This document shows positions 7,298 through 48,624 of a DNA stretch of 64,000 nt, one piece after another. The stretch spans positions 310,001 to 374,000 of the forward strand of contig NZ_AKCI01000001.1 of NCBI RefSeq assembly GCF_000269605.1, read 5' to 3'. The position numbers and the translations under genes were made by a program. Source of the DNA: Scardovia wiggsiae F0424 (lineage in GTDB: Bacteria > Actinomycetota > Actinomycetes > Actinomycetales > Bifidobacteriaceae). The notes below the pieces were generated by a model, which worked only from the letters and a program-made list of their open reading frames with translations, did no database searches and was not told the origin of the DNA. Position 1 is the first letter of the stretch. Each line of letters starts with the position of its first letter.

Positions 7298-8866
7298 TCA
7301 GCCCGCTGCCTGTTCTACATAGCCGGCCATATCGGCAATATCTACTGTGTCATTGAACCGGACCGGGGCGCTGTCTAAACTGCGCAGTTGCGCCGGAGGC
7401 ACAGTGCCGCTTACAGAACTTAAAATATCCATATACTGAAAGTCCGACAGCCCGTTTTTGCCTGGGGCCGCGAGCGCGCCGGCTTCGCCGGGAACGCTGC
7501 CGCGAATACTGTCCAGGGCGTTAAGGACAGTCCGAGGGAACTTGTAGGGGCTCGCAGTAGACAGCAGTATCTGCGGCCTTTCAGGGCTGTTCCCCTGCGA
7601 CTGCATCATAACATGATAGCCGCATGCTGTATGGGGGTCGATTACATAACGGTAGGATTCCCAGCAGCTGGCAATAGCGGACGTAACGTCATTTTCATCT
7701 GCCCACCCGCAGCTGAATATTTCCCGGATTTCTGCCAGAAGGCTTGGAGATATGCTGAAACTGCCGGTCCTGTCGAGATCATCCATAAGGCGGCAGATCA
7801 GCGCCGTATCGCCGCCGGACACGTAGTACAGCATGCGCTCGAGGTTGGAAGAGACTAAAATATCCATACTCGGGGAGGATGTTGCATAAAACGCGCGGTT
7901 ACGGTTGTATATGCCTGTTGTCAGGAAATCATAAAGGACATTATTCCTGTCGCTGGCTACAACGAGCTTCCCCACAGGGAGGCCCATGAGCCTGGCGTAA
8001 TATCCGGCAAGGACGTTGCCGAAATTGCCGGTTGGGACGATAAAATCAACCGGGATGCCGGCAGCAACTGCGTTGGTTTCAAGCAGCTGTGCGTATGCAG
8101 AAAAGTAGTAAGCTACCTGGGGGACGAGCCTGCCTATATTGATTGAATTTGCGCTGGACAGCAGCGTATGGGCCTCTGTGCCAAGCCTGTCTGCCAGGGG
8201 CTGATCTGTAAAAATATGCTTGACAGCAGTCTGGACGTCGTCGAAATTCCCTCTGACAGCGCAGACCCGGACGTTGCCGCCGGGCTGCGTGGCCATTTGC
8301 AGGCGCTGGATATCGCTGACTTTCCCTTCCGGGTAGAAAACCGTGATCGCCGTTCCCGGGCAGTCGGCAAATCCTGCCAGGGCTGCCTTTCCGGTGTCGC
8401 CGCTGGTAGCTGTGAGGATCATGATGCGTTTACCGGCACTGGGGTCTGCGGGCTCAGCTGCGGCCGCAGCCTGTGCCATGAACCGGGGGAGTATCTGCAG
8501 GGCGATATCTTTGAAGGCGCATGTAGGGCCATGGAAGAGTTCAAGGATGTAATGGTGTGCTCTATGCGTACCGTCTGCGGCTGCAACCCTGTGCACTGGG
8601 GCGATGCGCGGATCGTCAAAGGCATCCCCGTATGCGCCGGCAATGCATCCGTCCAGTTCCTGCCCGGTAAAATCGGGCAGGAGCGCATGCAGCACTGTCC
8701 GCGCAATATCAGCATAGCTTTTTCCGGCTAATGCAGACGCATCAATATAATGTCCAGCTAACGAATCATTGACGAACAGCCCGCCATCATCCGCGATGCC
8801 TTTCAGTATCGCCTGTTTGGACGTCAAATGACTTTCTGTGCTGCGTGTGCTGTGAAAGGATTCCAT
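7298..8866 (-). CDS. thrC: Threonine synthase
   Basis: PLP enzyme converting O-phosphohomoserine to threonine. About 522 residues from the ATG at 8866; a GTG two codons upstream (8872) is an alternative, and neither has a clear ribosome-binding site. The PLP lysine is in CAFKDIALQ (K119 from the ATG). TSGDTGKAAL is the phosphate-binding loop, and PTGNFGNVLAGYYA and SSNLERML are further family blocks. The length fits the long bacterial/fungal-type ThrC. It is transcribed divergently from the unknown gene at 8943 with a gap of only 76 bases, so promoters must share that gap. Confidence 0.94.
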   Translation of the reverse strand: MESFHSTRSTESHLTSKQAILKGIADDGGLFVNDSLAGHYIDASALAGKSYADIARTVLHALLPDFTGQELDGCIAGAYGDAFDDPRIAPVHRVAAADGTHRAHHYILELFHGPTCAFKDIALQILPRFMAQAAAAAEPADPSAGKRIMILTATSGDTGKAALAGFADCPGTAITVFYPEGKVSDIQRLQMATQPGGNVRVCAVRGNFDDVQTAVKHIFTDQPLADRLGTEAHTLLSSANSINIGRLVPQVAYYFSAYAQLLETNAVAAGIPVDFIVPTGNFGNVLAGYYARLMGLPVGKLVVASDRNNVLYDFLTTGIYNRNRAFYATSSPSMDILVSSNLERMLYYVSGGDTALICRLMDDLDRTGSFSISPSLLAEIREIFSCGWADENDVTSAIASCWESYRYVIDPHTACGYHVMMQSQGNSPERPQILLSTASPYKFPRTVLNALDSIRGSVPGEAGALAAPGKNGLSDFQYMDILSSVSGTVPPAQLRSLDSAPVRFNDTVDIADMAGYVEQAAG

Positions 8867-8942
8867 AACCACAGTCTATTAAGCTGTTAAGACCTGTGCG
8901 TAATACATTTTCGTCCTCAGTGATTGGAACAATGGGATTATT

Positions 8943-13630: not shown

Positions 13631-14494
13631 ATGGGGCAGCATGTACATTCAATATTCCTGATCCGGCATGGGCAGACTTCATACAATGCCCAGCACCGTT
13701 TTCAGGGGCAGATAGATATCCCGCTTAACGATATCGGGCGCTGGCAGGTCCGCCAGACCGCTGCTGAACTCACGCGCCTGTATGTGCAGTCTGATGGTGA
13801 TAACACATTTGATGTGCAGTCGGGTGTGAATGGCGCGATCAATGGTGACGGGGAGCGTGTTGAGGTATTTTCGCGCAGTGCTTCCGCATATTCTGACGGG
13901 CAGCCGGCCTCTCAGGGCGGGAGTGTGCCCTCTGCCAGGCATCAGATCGTGGTGAGCTCGAATCTCGGAAGGGCCCAGGAAACTGCACATACATTTGCTG
14001 ATCCGCTGGGGCTTCCGGTTCATGTAGACGAGCGCGTAGCTGAACGCAATTTCGGTGACTGGGAAGGCATGTCGATGAATGAGGTCCGGGAACAGTTCCC
14101 TGAGGATTACGTCGCATGGGAGCGGTTTGAAGGCGGGGAGCTCAGGCATGGGGCAGAGCTTAAGGAGCAGGTCGGTACGCGCGGAGTCGCAGCTGTCACA
14201 GACTGGGCAGCCAGGGCAGGCAGTGATACTGACCTTTTTGTTTTCTCGCATGGAGCGTGGATCAATCAGACCGTGCAGACCCTTTTGCGGCTGACTGATA
14301 CATATCCGGATTTTGCCAGCCTGGTATCTATGCGCAACGCTTTCTGGGTAAAGCTGTCCGGGCTGGATATGCCTGACGGTTCGGTACGCTGGCGTCTGGA
14401 AGAATACGAACACGGGCCAGTCGCTGCTTACATTACCGACTGGAATAATCCCGACCTTTCCGGGCAATCCAGCCTTTCTAGCCTCCAGGCCTAA
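13631..14494 (+). CDS. Histidine phosphatase / phosphoglycerate mutase-like protein
   Basis: 287 residues. The catalytic histidine is in FLIRHGQTSYNA (residues 9-20). ERNFGDWEGMS and the second conserved histidine in FVFSHGAWI complete the branch-1 histidine phosphatase site. An approximately 60-residue low-complexity insertion (residues about 58-100) separates the first motif from the rest. In rsfS neighbourhoods this gene is often annotated gpm, but the insertion and lack of mutase-specific residues make a phosphatase more likely; the substrate is unknown. Its stop overlaps the convergent permease stop by four bases. Confidence 0.82.
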   Translation: MGQHVHSIFLIRHGQTSYNAQHRFQGQIDIPLNDIGRWQVRQTAAELTRLYVQSDGDNTFDVQSGVNGAINGDGERVEVFSRSASAYSDGQPASQGGSVPSARHQIVVSSNLGRAQETAHTFADPLGLPVHVDERVAERNFGDWEGMSMNEVREQFPEDYVAWERFEGGELRHGAELKEQVGTRGVAAVTDWAARAGSDTDLFVFSHGAWINQTVQTLLRLTDTYPDFASLVSMRNAFWVKLSGLDMPDGSVRWRLEEYEHGPVAAYITDWNNPDLSGQSSLSSLQA

Positions 14495-16128
14495 CTCATC
14501 CCAGTCTTCTGTACTTTGTGCGCGGCTGCTGTATGGGCAGTCCCCCCGATATCAGCCGTTTTATCGTGCTGTATACTGAGGCTGTCAAGATCTATATCTT
14601 TAAGAGGGATGACTTTAGTGCGGTTCCTGATCTTGTATCCTAAATACAGGATCAGGAACAGCGGCACGGACATGTAGATGACGCAAATCGCCTGCCAGTT
14701 GAGCGTCCTGAAAGAATTCAGATCCTGCCCGACTATGACCAGGATACACAGGATAAAAGCAAGGACAGGACCGAAGGGGAACCATTTCGCATGGTATTTC
14801 ATTTCATCAAGCGAATGCCCTTGTGCTATGAACGCCCTGCGGAAGCGGAAATGCGATATGGCGATCCCCGCCCATGCTATAAAACCGGTGAGCCCGCTTG
14901 CCGCTACAAGGAATATGTAGATATTGTTCCCGAAGATGCTTGTCAGGAAAGTCAGAAATGCAACAAATGTTGTCCCTAACAGTGCAGGTATGGGTATGCC
15001 ATGGAAATTGACCATACCGAAAATGCCAGGCGCATGTTTTTCTTTGGCAAGGGCATAGAGCATGCGTGTGGAAGCGTACATACCCGAGTTTGCAGCAGAG
15101 ATAACAGATGTGAGGACTACTGCATTCATGACGGCGGCGGCTGCGGCGAGCCCTGCGCGTTGGAAAACCAGGGTGAATGGGCTCATTGCGATATCTGTTG
15201 CTTCTGATCCCAGCAGGCTGGGGCTGGTGTAGGGGATGATGCAGGCGATAACAAATATTGAGAGGATATAGAACAGGAGTATCCTCCAGAATACCTGTTT
15301 GATGGCTTTGGGGATGCTTTTCTCCGGTGTGGCGGATTCGCCCGCAGTTATACCTATAAGCTCAGTCCCCTGGAAGGAAAACCCGGCGACGGTAAATGCC
15401 CCAAGCACTGCGGGGAAACCTCCGACGAAGGGAGCCTCTTTATATGTGAAATTAGACAGGAAAGTAGCTTTTCCGCCAATGATCCCAGCTATGGTAAGGG
15501 TCCCTACGATAAGGAAGATGATAACGGTTATAACTTTTATGAGTGCCATCCAGTATTCAGTTTCGCCGAAGGACTGCACGGCAAGTACATTGATGAGGAA
15601 GATCACGGCAAGGACAGCCAGGGAGAATACCCAGACAGGCACTGACGGGAACCAGTACCGCAGGACTATGGCACTGGTCGTGGTATCTACGGCAACAGTG
15701 ATAGCCCAGTTGAACCAGTAGTTCCATCCCATCGCGAATCCGAGTGCAGGGTCGACGAAGCGTCCCGCGTACGTGGCAAATGACCCTGTTACGGGCATAT
15801 ATGTAGCCATTTCGCCGAGTGATGTCATCAGGAAATATACCATGATCCCGATTGCAGCGTATGCAGCAAGGGCGCCGCCGGGACCGGCTGAATGGATACT
15901 TGCCCCGCTGGCAACGAAGAGCCCTGTGCCGATGCTCCCGCCAAGGGCGATCATGGATACGTGCCGGGTTTTCAGGGCGCGTTTGACTGTGTTGCCGGAA
16001 CGTGGCTGCTCAGGCTCTGAACTTTGCGCTGCTTCCGCCTGTATGCCTGGCTGCTTTACTGCAGCGTGCCCGGTATGTGATGGTGAACCGTTCTGCTTGC
16101 CCTGGTATTGGTTGCCTGAATTGCTCAT
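14491..16128 (-). CDS. lysP: APC-family amino-acid permease, probably lysine-specific (LysP-like)
   Basis: Inner-membrane secondary transporter. 545 residues with about 12 hydrophobic helices. After a polar 50-residue N-terminus the family block RHVSMIALGGSIGTGLFVASG begins helix 1, and SFQGTELIGITAGES is the conserved region near helix 6. This is the basic/aromatic amino-acid permease subgroup (LysP, GabP, AroP). The specificity call comes from the upstream lysine riboswitch, not from the protein. GGAGG precedes the ATG. If the riboswitch reading is wrong, call it only an amino-acid permease. Confidence 0.85.
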   Translation of the reverse strand: MSNSGNQYQGKQNGSPSHTGHAAVKQPGIQAEAAQSSEPEQPRSGNTVKRALKTRHVSMIALGGSIGTGLFVASGASIHSAGPGGALAAYAAIGIMVYFLMTSLGEMATYMPVTGSFATYAGRFVDPALGFAMGWNYWFNWAITVAVDTTTSAIVLRYWFPSVPVWVFSLAVLAVIFLINVLAVQSFGETEYWMALIKVITVIIFLIVGTLTIAGIIGGKATFLSNFTYKEAPFVGGFPAVLGAFTVAGFSFQGTELIGITAGESATPEKSIPKAIKQVFWRILLFYILSIFVIACIIPYTSPSLLGSEATDIAMSPFTLVFQRAGLAAAAAVMNAVVLTSVISAANSGMYASTRMLYALAKEKHAPGIFGMVNFHGIPIPALLGTTFVAFLTFLTSIFGNNIYIFLVAASGLTGFIAWAGIAISHFRFRRAFIAQGHSLDEMKYHAKWFPFGPVLAFILCILVIVGQDLNSFRTLNWQAICVIYMSVPLFLILYLGYKIRNRTKVIPLKDIDLDSLSIQHDKTADIGGTAHTAAAHKVQKTGMS

Positions 16129-16195
16129 TTTCCTCCGTACGTCTGTGGTACAACGTGTTCCAGAGGCTGTGCGGCTTAAGCAGAACCGGATCTCG

Positions 16196-16389
16196 ATAGC
16201 GCTCCGTAGCTGTCCGGGCCTCTGCAGTGCAGAAACCGTATAAACTACGACAGTCTTTGACCTTTTGGATCAAAGCCCAGCGTACGGCTGAAAAAGCGGC
16301 CGTACGCTTCGGCGTTTTCCCCTTTCGCTGTTTATCGTTGCTGCTTTTCAGCTCCAAACAGGTACTGATGTCAAACGCGACCTCTGGTC
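16196..16389 (-). promoter_or_regulatory. Lysine riboswitch (L box) in the permease leader
   Basis: Reading the minus strand toward the permease, the conserved lysine-riboswitch blocks appear in order: CCAGAGGTCGCG, ATCAGTA, GAAAGGGGAAAACGCCGAAG, a perfect 10-bp stem (AGCGTACGGC/GCCGTACGCT), CTGGG, AGACTGTCGTAG, and GGACAGCTACGGAG at the 3' side (plus coordinates 16201-16214). These are the junction residues that contact lysine in the known class. I cannot draw a convincing P1 stem by eye. No terminator stem plus T-run follows before the ATG, so control is probably at translation initiation near GGAGG. Confidence 0.82.
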
Positions 16390-16609
16390 GATGGGAACAA
16401 TTATGGGTTCCCATGCGGACAAAGGCTGCCTGTGCAGCCAGAAGATGGTTTTGCTGCTGTTATGCCTGCTGATAGCCTGCAAGATCTGCAGCCGTGTAAA
16501 CGGGGAAAATCAAGGCGTTCCATGGATCCTGGGAGGTATCCGACACGCTGATAATTCAATCAGGGATAGCTAAAATACTCCCTATTCGCTAAAATGATTC
16601 ACGTACTTC

Positions 16610-16682
16610 GGGGCTATGGCGCAGTTGGTAGCGCGTCTCAATGGCATTGAGAAGGTCAGGGGTTCGAATCCCCTTAGCTCCA
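16610..16682 (+). tRNA. tRNA-Ala(GGC)
   Basis: Acceptor GGGGCTA pairs with TAGCTCC with discriminator A (one G-U). The D-arm is GCGC...GCGC, the anticodon stem TCTCA/TGAGA encloses loop ATGGCAT giving GGC, and the T-arm is AGGGG-TTCGAAT-CCCCT. 73 bases, CCA not encoded. Confidence 0.96.
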
Positions 16683-16700
16683 CTTCTGTAAAGTATTTAG

Positions 16701-16735
16701 AAGCCTTGGAAACATTAGTGTTCCAGGGCTTTTTC
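16701..16735 (+). terminator. Intrinsic terminator of tRNA-Ala
   Basis: Stem AAGCCTTGGAA with TTCCAGGGCTT (one G-U), loop acattagtg, followed by TTTTCTTTTC. Confidence 0.85.
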
Positions 16736-16873
16736 TTTTCCCGTTCCTGTGATGTGCCCACGTTTACCTATCTGTCATTATCCTCATTTACCGTTTTTAG
16801 ATAATTGGGGATACTTGGCTGCGGATAGCTTTGCTTAGAGAAGTGTCGAAGAGGAATGCCTGATTGTAAAGAT

Positions 16874-16881
16874 GCTATAAT
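16874..16881 (+). promoter_or_regulatory. Extended -10 promoter in the tRNA-Ala/corA gap
   Basis: TGC followed immediately by TATAAT is an extended -10, which tolerates the absence of a good -35. Transcription would start near 16888. The first 20 bases of RNA contain a small hairpin (AAACTC gtat GAGTTT, about 16890-16905), and a strong hairpin follows at 16923. No intact annotated gene lies immediately downstream, so the transcript is unexplained. Confidence 0.5.
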
Positions 16882-16922
16882 AAAGACTAAACTCGTATGA
16901 GTTTTTCATTTTATATCCTTTA

Positions 16923-16957
16923 CTCCTGCCCATTGAGGGCAGGAGGTTATGTTTTTT
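16923..16957 (+). promoter_or_regulatory. Strong hairpin that covers a Shine-Dalgarno sequence
   Basis: A perfect 9-bp stem, CTCCTGCCC/GGGCAGGAG (16923-16931 with 16937-16945), has the loop ATTGA. The 3' arm contains AGGAGG directly before an ATG at 16949, so the ribosome site is paired with its own anti-SD. A run of six T follows (16952-16957), so the same element could act as a terminator. Which function applies cannot be told from sequence. Confidence 0.55.
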
Positions 16958-17223
16958 ACTACTGGGTATAGTGCGCTAAGAGTGTTTATATACCTGTTTA
17001 CTCTCCTCTAAACAATTGGCAATTTCCGGCTCCAGAGGGCTGGTGTGGCTGTGGAGCCTTTCCTGGAGCGGAATTAGCTTTCACAGATGCAGGAGGCTGG
17101 AACTGGCTTAGAACGTCAAGAGGGGAGTTAAAATCGCTTGGTAAAGTAAAACCAACCATATGCTACGAAATTTGGTATCCATATGGATCATCACAACTGA
17201 AGCCTGTTAGTTTGCCTGAATAG
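16949..17223 (+). pseudogene. Broken or frameshifted small Trp-rich reading frame
   Basis: From the ATG at 16949 a 20-codon frame runs to TAA at 17009. In the -1 frame, codons are open from 16972 to the TAG at 17221 (83 codons) with no ATG, GTG or TTG before the last few codons. Its translation looks protein-like: Trp-rich, with PAPEGWCGCGAFPGAELAF and CYEIWYPYGSS. One indel between about 16972 and 17009 would join it to the 16949 start and give roughly 90 residues. I do not recognise the family. It may be a decayed gene, a sequencing error, or chance. Confidence 0.35.
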
Positions 17224-17345
17224 CTGCCGGATTCCAGAGGATCGCTCGTATCCATGCGCTAAGGCTCCTCGGCTTTATATTGAAATTGATCTTATTCATT
17301 TAAAATTGTAAAGATCGATAATGACAGATTCCGGGTGCATATAAA

Positions 17346-17463
17346 GTAAGCTATATCTTACACGGTGTTTAATCTATTTATAGTAAAGGTGCAGCGTTCA
17401 ATTTTTACTACGTATTTACTTCAGTATAAAATATAAGGTTGTGATGTAAAGCTTACTCGGTGT
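17346..17463 (+). repeat. Two copies of a GTAA...CTTACnCGGTGT element upstream of corA
   Basis: Copy 1 is GTAAGctatatCTTACaCGGTGT (17346-17368) and copy 2 is GTAAAGCTTACtCGGTGT (17446-17463). Their starts are exactly 100 bases apart, each with internal dyad symmetry. Between them lies AT-rich DNA with TATAAA at 17425-17430, a possible corA -10. They could be operator half-sites or a remnant duplication. This part of the gap (17224-17476) otherwise shows nothing recognisable. Confidence 0.4.
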
Positions 17464-17476
17464 ATTGAGGGTGGTG

Positions 17477-18433
17477 ATGGCTATGATGCGTATATTTAAT
17501 ACGATTGACGGGCAGACAGAGCAGGTCTCGAAGCCTGAACGCGGCGCATGGATATCACTTGTTGACCCTACGGATATAGAGCTTTCCACGGTTTCGCAGA
17601 AGCATAAGATCGACCTTGCAGACCTGCGTGCCCCTCTGGATGATGAAGAGCGCTCGCGTATTGATGTTGAAGATGACTATACTATGATCATCGTTGATAT
17701 ACCTACTGTCGAGGAACGTGCCGAGCGGAACTGGTACAACACTATCCCTCTGTCTATTATTGTGACTGACGGCGTGATCATTACTGTATGCTCGCAGGAT
17801 ACCCCGCTTCTGCACCCGTTTATGGACGGGACTATCCGCGGGTTCAATACTTTCATGCATACACGGTTCATTTTGCAGATACTTTACCGGAATGCGGCAA
17901 TGTATTTGCGGTATCTGCGTATCATTGACCGGGAATCCGACAAACTGGAGATCAGGATGCAGGACTCCACGCGGAACCGTGAGATACTCATCCTTATGGA
18001 GCTGTCGAAATCTTTGCTGTATTTCACCACAAGCCTTAAGTCGAATGAGATAGTGCTTGAGAAGCTGACCACCCTGAACCGTATCAGGCCGTACGAGGAT
18101 GATAACGATCTGCTTGAGGATGTGATCACAGAGAATAAGCAGGCTATTGAAATGGCGACTATTTACCAGGGAGTCCTTCAGGGGATGACGGATGCGTTCA
18201 GCTCTATTGTGTCGAATAATGTGAATAATGTTATGCGTGTATTTACTATTATTTCCATCGTCCTGACCATCCCAACCCTTGTATTTTCGCTGTACGGCAT
18301 GAATTTCCCGTGGATGCCCTTCCTTGACAAACCGTGGGGTTTTGCGATAGTTATGCTTTCCACCCTGGCCATTACCGTGGGCGCTACATGGTGGCTTATG
18401 CACAGCCGTTTCTTCAAAGTGGGCAAAGGCTGA
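17477..18433 (+). CDS. corA: CorA-family divalent cation transporter
   Basis: Inner-membrane Mg2+/Co2+ channel, homopentameric in the family. About 318 residues from the ATG at 17477, chosen because GAGG lies 6 bases upstream; upstream TTG/GTG codons and the ATG at 17483 are alternatives. The large N-terminal cytoplasmic domain is followed by a long helix and two C-terminal membrane helices (residues about 255-310). The signature YGMNF sits at the end of TM1 and forms the selectivity filter. It stands as a single gene between a long regulatory gap and leuS. Confidence 0.9.
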   Translation: MAMMRIFNTIDGQTEQVSKPERGAWISLVDPTDIELSTVSQKHKIDLADLRAPLDDEERSRIDVEDDYTMIIVDIPTVEERAERNWYNTIPLSIIVTDGVIITVCSQDTPLLHPFMDGTIRGFNTFMHTRFILQILYRNAAMYLRYLRIIDRESDKLEIRMQDSTRNREILILMELSKSLLYFTTSLKSNEIVLEKLTTLNRIRPYEDDNDLLEDVITENKQAIEMATIYQGVLQGMTDAFSSIVSNNVNNVMRVFTIISIVLTIPTLVFSLYGMNFPWMPFLDKPWGFAIVMLSTLAITVGATWWLMHSRFFKVGKG

Positions 18434-48405: not shown

Positions 48406-48503
48406 AACTATTCCTTTCGCCTGTCTGTTTGTAATTTTACTTTAGCAGAATCCTTGTCGCAATGTGGAGGCTAACGTCATTATCGAGTATGGATGTGGTT
48501 AAG

Positions 48504-48545
48504 ATTTTGGGCGGAAGGCCGGTAATATGGCCTTCCGCCCAAAAT
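48504..48545. terminator. 17-bp perfect hairpin, bidirectional terminator shape
   Basis: ATTTTGGGCGGAAGGCC and its exact complement flank an 8-base loop (ggtaatat). The stem has A/T ends on both sides, so it could stop transcription in either direction; the gene it serves is the GT39 gene on the minus strand, ending 80 bases away. Confidence 0.85.
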
Positions 48546-48624
48546 CTGCAGTTATGCTGGCACTTCATGCATGGAGCAGGGAAAGCGGGCTCGTCTGAGT
48601 CACGGCGCATCAGACAGGGGAGGG

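Follow-up and report, generated by a model that had tools for sequence, protein, structure and literature searches.

The closest described counterpart of the locus analysed here is phrog_22307, a family of unknown function in PHROGs v4. It is matched by all eight full-length relatives that were tested (L046, L048, L049, L051, L053, L059, L060 and L066), with E-values from 4e-12 to 0.0011; the L046 protein, for instance, aligns with it over residues 47-193 (E 0.00065). Seven of these relatives comprise 178-215 aa, and L066 has 169 residues. Each of the seven carries a hydrophobic stretch, with Kyte-Doolittle means over 19 residues of 1.70-2.40, which starts at residue 9-24 in six members and at residue 45 in L053. 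Judging from this stretch, the family may represent a membrane-anchored protein. Six aligned members share 14 invariant columns, six before a PPG column and eight from PPG onward. In Pfam, none of the seven members scanned (L046 and six more) found a match up to E 0.01. The sole NCBIfam match, that of L048 to an acylphosphatase model (E 0.00017), reached 21.9 bits against a cut-off of 101 and was not built on.

Two plasmid-borne relatives illustrate the intact form. An unannotated ORF (L048:2111-2707) on the conjugative plasmid NZ_CP084551.1 of Arthrobacter sp. FW306-07-I and the hypothetical protein WP_328384416.1 on the Micromonospora zamorensis plasmid NZ_CP107937.1 exhibit the same C-terminal signature, F.D..G..W.R...G.L, as the copy described below; unlike that copy, both are full length and possess the hydrophobic N-terminal stretch. 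A further decayed member is found in genome G556, which belongs to the same taxonomic family as our organism (L065:1465-2052, minus strand, near a Mutator-type transposase). It retains most of its length and carries one internal stop, whereas our copy retains the tail only.

Our window, i.e. the whole 64-kb stretch of DNA that was analysed, corresponds to positions 310001-374000 of a 1.55-Mb genome that consists of one contig. Among named organisms, bifidobacteria have the CorA proteins nearest to its own, and we therefore take Bifidobacteriaceae as its taxonomic family. Between a tRNA-Ala (16610-16683) and the gene of a CorA-type transporter (corA, 17477-18433), we observe a Trp-rich frame that runs from stop to stop over 83 codons and ends with TAG (16972-17223, plus strand). 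It is most probably the fossil of an ordinary gene, and neither a small secreted peptide nor a translation switch. The interval is AT-rich, with 37-46% G+C in 300-base steps over 16600-17499 compared with 53.5% for the window. The Rfam scan yielded seven window matches at the gathering score, none of them in 16684-17476, so that no known structured RNA is recognised there. Comparison of the DNA of 16741-17470 with other loci (own loci as well as L002 and L003 excluded) gave nothing beyond two matches of 21-22 nt. Directly after the tRNA-Ala, the segment 16701-16777, terminator-like by eye, is in part about 80% alike to sequences behind the tmRNA and tRNA-Lys genes of the same genome (L002, L003); these pieces are the only other matches of 16700-17400 in the genome. 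On the other side of the tRNA, a lysine riboswitch is located at 16189-16395 on the minus strand (Rfam RF00168, 111 bits), followed downstream by a 545-residue ORF (14491-16128, minus strand) which we take to be permease-like.

The interval also holds a perfect 13-bp inverted repeat, ATCTGTCATTATC, at 16770-16782 and 17317-17329, which surrounds the gene fragment and the hairpin discussed below. Its left arm overlaps the repeat found after the tRNA and tmRNA genes, and these two are the only exact copies of the arm in the genome. Its score was reached in one of 300 shuffles. A mobile-element boundary at this repeat was considered and rejected: three out of 80 ordinary window segments score equally, and no target-site duplication is visible. 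Elsewhere in the window, at 48502-48547, there is a 19-bp perfect inverted repeat with a loop of 8 nt.

The link to phrog_22307 emerged directly from the PHROG scan, in which residues 19-77 of the 82 encoded by the frame match positions 133-190 of the 191 in the family model (E 0.0026); phrog_17943, also listed (E 0.41), was not used. The frame lacks the counterpart of the first 130 or so positions, as well as a start codon: neither ATG, GTG nor TTG occurs before codon 81. Pfam, NCBIfam and PADLOC gave no match up to E 1, and thus no described Trp/Cys-rich (bacteriocin-like) peptide family; 12 matches to PDB sequences, all at E 0.41 or worse, were not used. The frame had been described as Trp-rich with two Cys. 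Its extent and its richness in Trp (five residues) hold, but the number of Cys is four.

Searches with the 82-residue peptide itself returned little. None of seven candidate stretches in viral contigs and none of 70 in genome contigs turned out to be relatives, and the phages gave no match. Among plasmids a single weak match (E 0.2) was found, inside the full-length Arthrobacter member L048. Of 396 genomes of the phylum, two matched weakly besides the organism's own, namely G460, where the match lies near the C-terminus of the long ORF L046, and G317, which was rejected as it falls in a different frame of a 341-residue ORF. Among 39 relatives, one weak match besides the own genome was seen in G005, with 42% identity over 53 residues, in an ORF that we assume to be glycosyltransferase-like; an origin of the frame from such a gene was rejected and the match taken as chance.

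Family membership was judged by profiles. Since L046 had been picked by its likeness to the frame and L048 had been found weakly with it, an independent profile was built from L049, L051, L053, L059 and L060, none of which was chosen for resemblance to the frame. This five-member profile ranks the frame first of the 1703 stop-to-stop frames of at least 20 residues in the window (25.8 bits, E 5.7e-7), compared with an E-value of 2.3 for the runner-up and a maximum of 3.3 bits in 2000 shuffles of the peptide. It aligns only 45 residues, i.e. residues 26-70 of the frame at about 17047-17181. The seven-member profile likewise puts the frame at the top of the 1703 (35.8 bits, E 4.9e-10; runner-up 0.5, best shuffle 4.2). 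When six members, among them L046 and L048, were compared with the frame by hhalign, the probability was 91.7 and the P-value 7.6e-7. Searches with single members are more variable: five out of seven place the frame first with E-values from 6.8e-5 to 0.0043, whereas L053 places it first at E 0.48 and L059 second at E 1.4. The stretch with detectable homology extends over 17005-17205 on the plus strand, where hhalign covers 17005-17145 and hmmsearch with the seven-member profile covers 17011-17205. From PPG onward, the frame retains seven out of eight invariant columns (F, D, G, W, R, G and L), and thus all seven columns of the C-terminal signature; the column not retained is the second P of PPG.

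The picture is different for the N-terminal part. In L049, 131 residues precede the stretch aligned with the frame, whose homology starts at 17005-17011. More than 100 N-terminal residues are without a counterpart upstream, where none of the three frames read forward through 16684-17230 shows an N-terminal family signal. The hydrophobic stretch and the six invariant positions before PPG (Q, W, N, S, P and Y) are both missing from the window copy; one alignment, A1, places the invariant P and Y on the letters IPVYS of the window, a placement that we do not trust. Family members have their own start codon and 169-215 residues, in contrast to the 83 codons of the frame. The original prediction held that a single indel would join this frame to a preceding one of 20 codons, starting with ATG, into a peptide of about 90 residues. 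The 20-codon frame exists (16949-17011, plus strand, with TAA at 17009-17011). It carries no family signal, ends at 17011 where the homology starts, and is too short for the missing part. As the N-terminal part was not found upstream either, the proposed join would not restore the ancestral protein of about 200 residues.

The letters upstream of the frame are largely as had been described. An extended -10-like element, TGCTATAAT, is read at 16873-16881 (plus strand), at chance frequency; no -35 partner is listed, and the promoter scan lists no promoter-like pair with this -10. Across the window, TGNTATAAT occurs twice, compared with 1.7 times in 20 shuffles. A small hairpin of 6 bp follows at 16889-16904 (plus strand). 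The perfect 9-bp hairpin CTCCTGCCC/ATTGA/GGGCAGGAG, with a loop of 5 nt, is present at 16923-16945 (plus strand), but it does not pair the whole AGGAGG (16941-16946) as claimed: the 3' arm contains AGGAG, so that five of these bases lie inside the stem. Hairpins as good as this one occurred in 15 of 1000 shuffles of 16742-17476, but perfect hairpins of this size are listed 12 times, at nine distinct places, in the 64-kb window against a shuffle mean of 2.05. The same 8-bp stem is also part of a hairpin inside a 524-residue ORF (7298-8872), and its exact pattern, with loops of 3-12 nt, is found at two places in the genome and at none in the two genus relatives. The 9-bp hairpin is the least ordinary part and mildly unusual, while the other letters described are ordinary in comparison with shuffles. 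Promoter-like and hairpin letters may be due to chance or may derive from an old, unrelated leader; no test links them to the Trp-rich frame.

Several other readings were weighed against the gene fragment. According to one of them, translation starts at the hairpin-masked ATG at 16949 and passes by a frameshift into the Trp-rich frame, yielding a short stand-alone C-terminal domain under translational control, i.e. a living small gene. The hairpin over AGGAG, the overlap of the two frames and the seven retained C-terminal columns are in favour of it. The geometry of such a translation switch is weak, however, with only 2 nt between AGGAGG and the ATG, and AGGAGG followed by a start codon after 2-9 nt is near chance frequency (16 in the window, 12.65 in shuffles). 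Moreover, no classical slippery heptamer was seen by eye where the two frames overlap, all seven members examined have 178-215 residues and a hydrophobic N-terminal stretch, and the two genus relatives lack a match. We consider this reading very unlikely, and the 20-codon frame at 16949 is probably not a gene. Less likely still is a new role for the truncated C-terminal domain as a small protein of its own, controlled by the hairpin and accessible by frameshift from the masked ATG.

A short regulatory RNA, running from the promoter at 16873 to the 16923-16945 hairpin as a terminator or riboregulator and unrelated to the Trp frame, is improbable, though less so than a small gene. The fold of 16883-16990 has a z-score of -2.99, equalled or bettered by three of 200 shuffles, and the hairpin is listed by the terminator scan of 16500-17600. 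It is the one terminator-like site there, however, where 1.2 are expected, and six bases lie between the stem and the run of six T. Neither a match to Rfam at the gathering score nor similarity within the own genome, apart from the segments that follow tmRNA and tRNA-Lys, accompanies it. There is as little reason to favour chance resemblance within an entirely non-coding interval as there is to favour a living small gene. A stop-free run of at least 83 codons on either strand did occur in 376 out of 2000 shuffles of 16742-17476, and two matches of the same searches, the ORF in G005 and the wrong frame in G317, look like chance as well. Against this stand the E-value of the independent profile among 1703 frames, which no shuffle approaches, and the direct match to phrog_22307, which falls at the equivalent place near the C-terminus.

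The distribution of the family bears on the origin of the fragment. The family is scattered over actinobacteria: full-length members are sporadic in the organism's own taxonomic family and also occur on three plasmids. With L046 as the query, nine of the 121 genomes searched in the taxonomic family matched at E 0.01 (the own genome included, several of them weak), together with the three plasmids. A six-member model matched 12 out of 189 genomes of the taxonomic family, again including the own one. Among these, G067, G509 and G528 had supplied rows of the model, while G518, G580 and the broken copy of G556 had not; the partial matches in G524, G489, G508, G075 and G016 (30-42 bits) may be chance. 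The phrog_22307 query found only the own genome among 59 relatives (1/59, E 0.0089); over the 396 genomes of the phylum it found none at E 0.001, a result that does not show absence. Viral contigs searched with three full-length members contained no relatives, and L046 and L049 had no match in phages at E 0.01.

In terms of neighbourhood, L059 adjoins a tyrosine recombinase and L066 a phage-type integrase, and L063 and L065 lie near transposase-type ORFs; the neighbours of L049 and L051 included no integrase or transposase by eye. A homologous frame in close genomes, as the original prediction envisaged, was not found at the level of the genus: neither of its two other genomes matches the frame, L046 or the six-member model. 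In G001, the interval from tRNA-Ala to corA is occupied by other ORFs, presumably for a nucleoside hydrolase and for a transporter that is divided between two frames, and G002 carries the same hydrolase ORF upstream of corA. The best hydrolase copy of the own genome (66% identical) is located elsewhere, at genome position 640378-641319.

Implementing all facts, we suggest with a probability of roughly 85% that what remains between tRNA-Ala and corA as the Trp-rich frame is the dead 3' part of a phrog_22307-like gene, an accessory gene that was probably acquired horizontally. This figure takes into account that one conserved C-terminal column is lost and that the independent profile aligns only 45 residues. 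The gene would have entered on a mobile element, and its 5' part would have been lost by deletion or rearrangement, or possibly through a failed transfer. What is left would now be drifting without giving rise to a functional peptide, and a present function is not expected. The original prediction is thus partly confirmed in its observations and partly supported in its interpretation: of the decayed small secreted peptide gene that it proposed, decay is best supported, with the frame as the tail of a family member, whereas a small secreted peptide does not fit relatives of about 200 residues. By itself, the case carries little weight. It advises caution, in that a stop-free run beside a hairpin should not be read as a small gene, and it illustrates the decay, in a small genome, of a mobile accessory family that is listed among phage families as one of unknown function.
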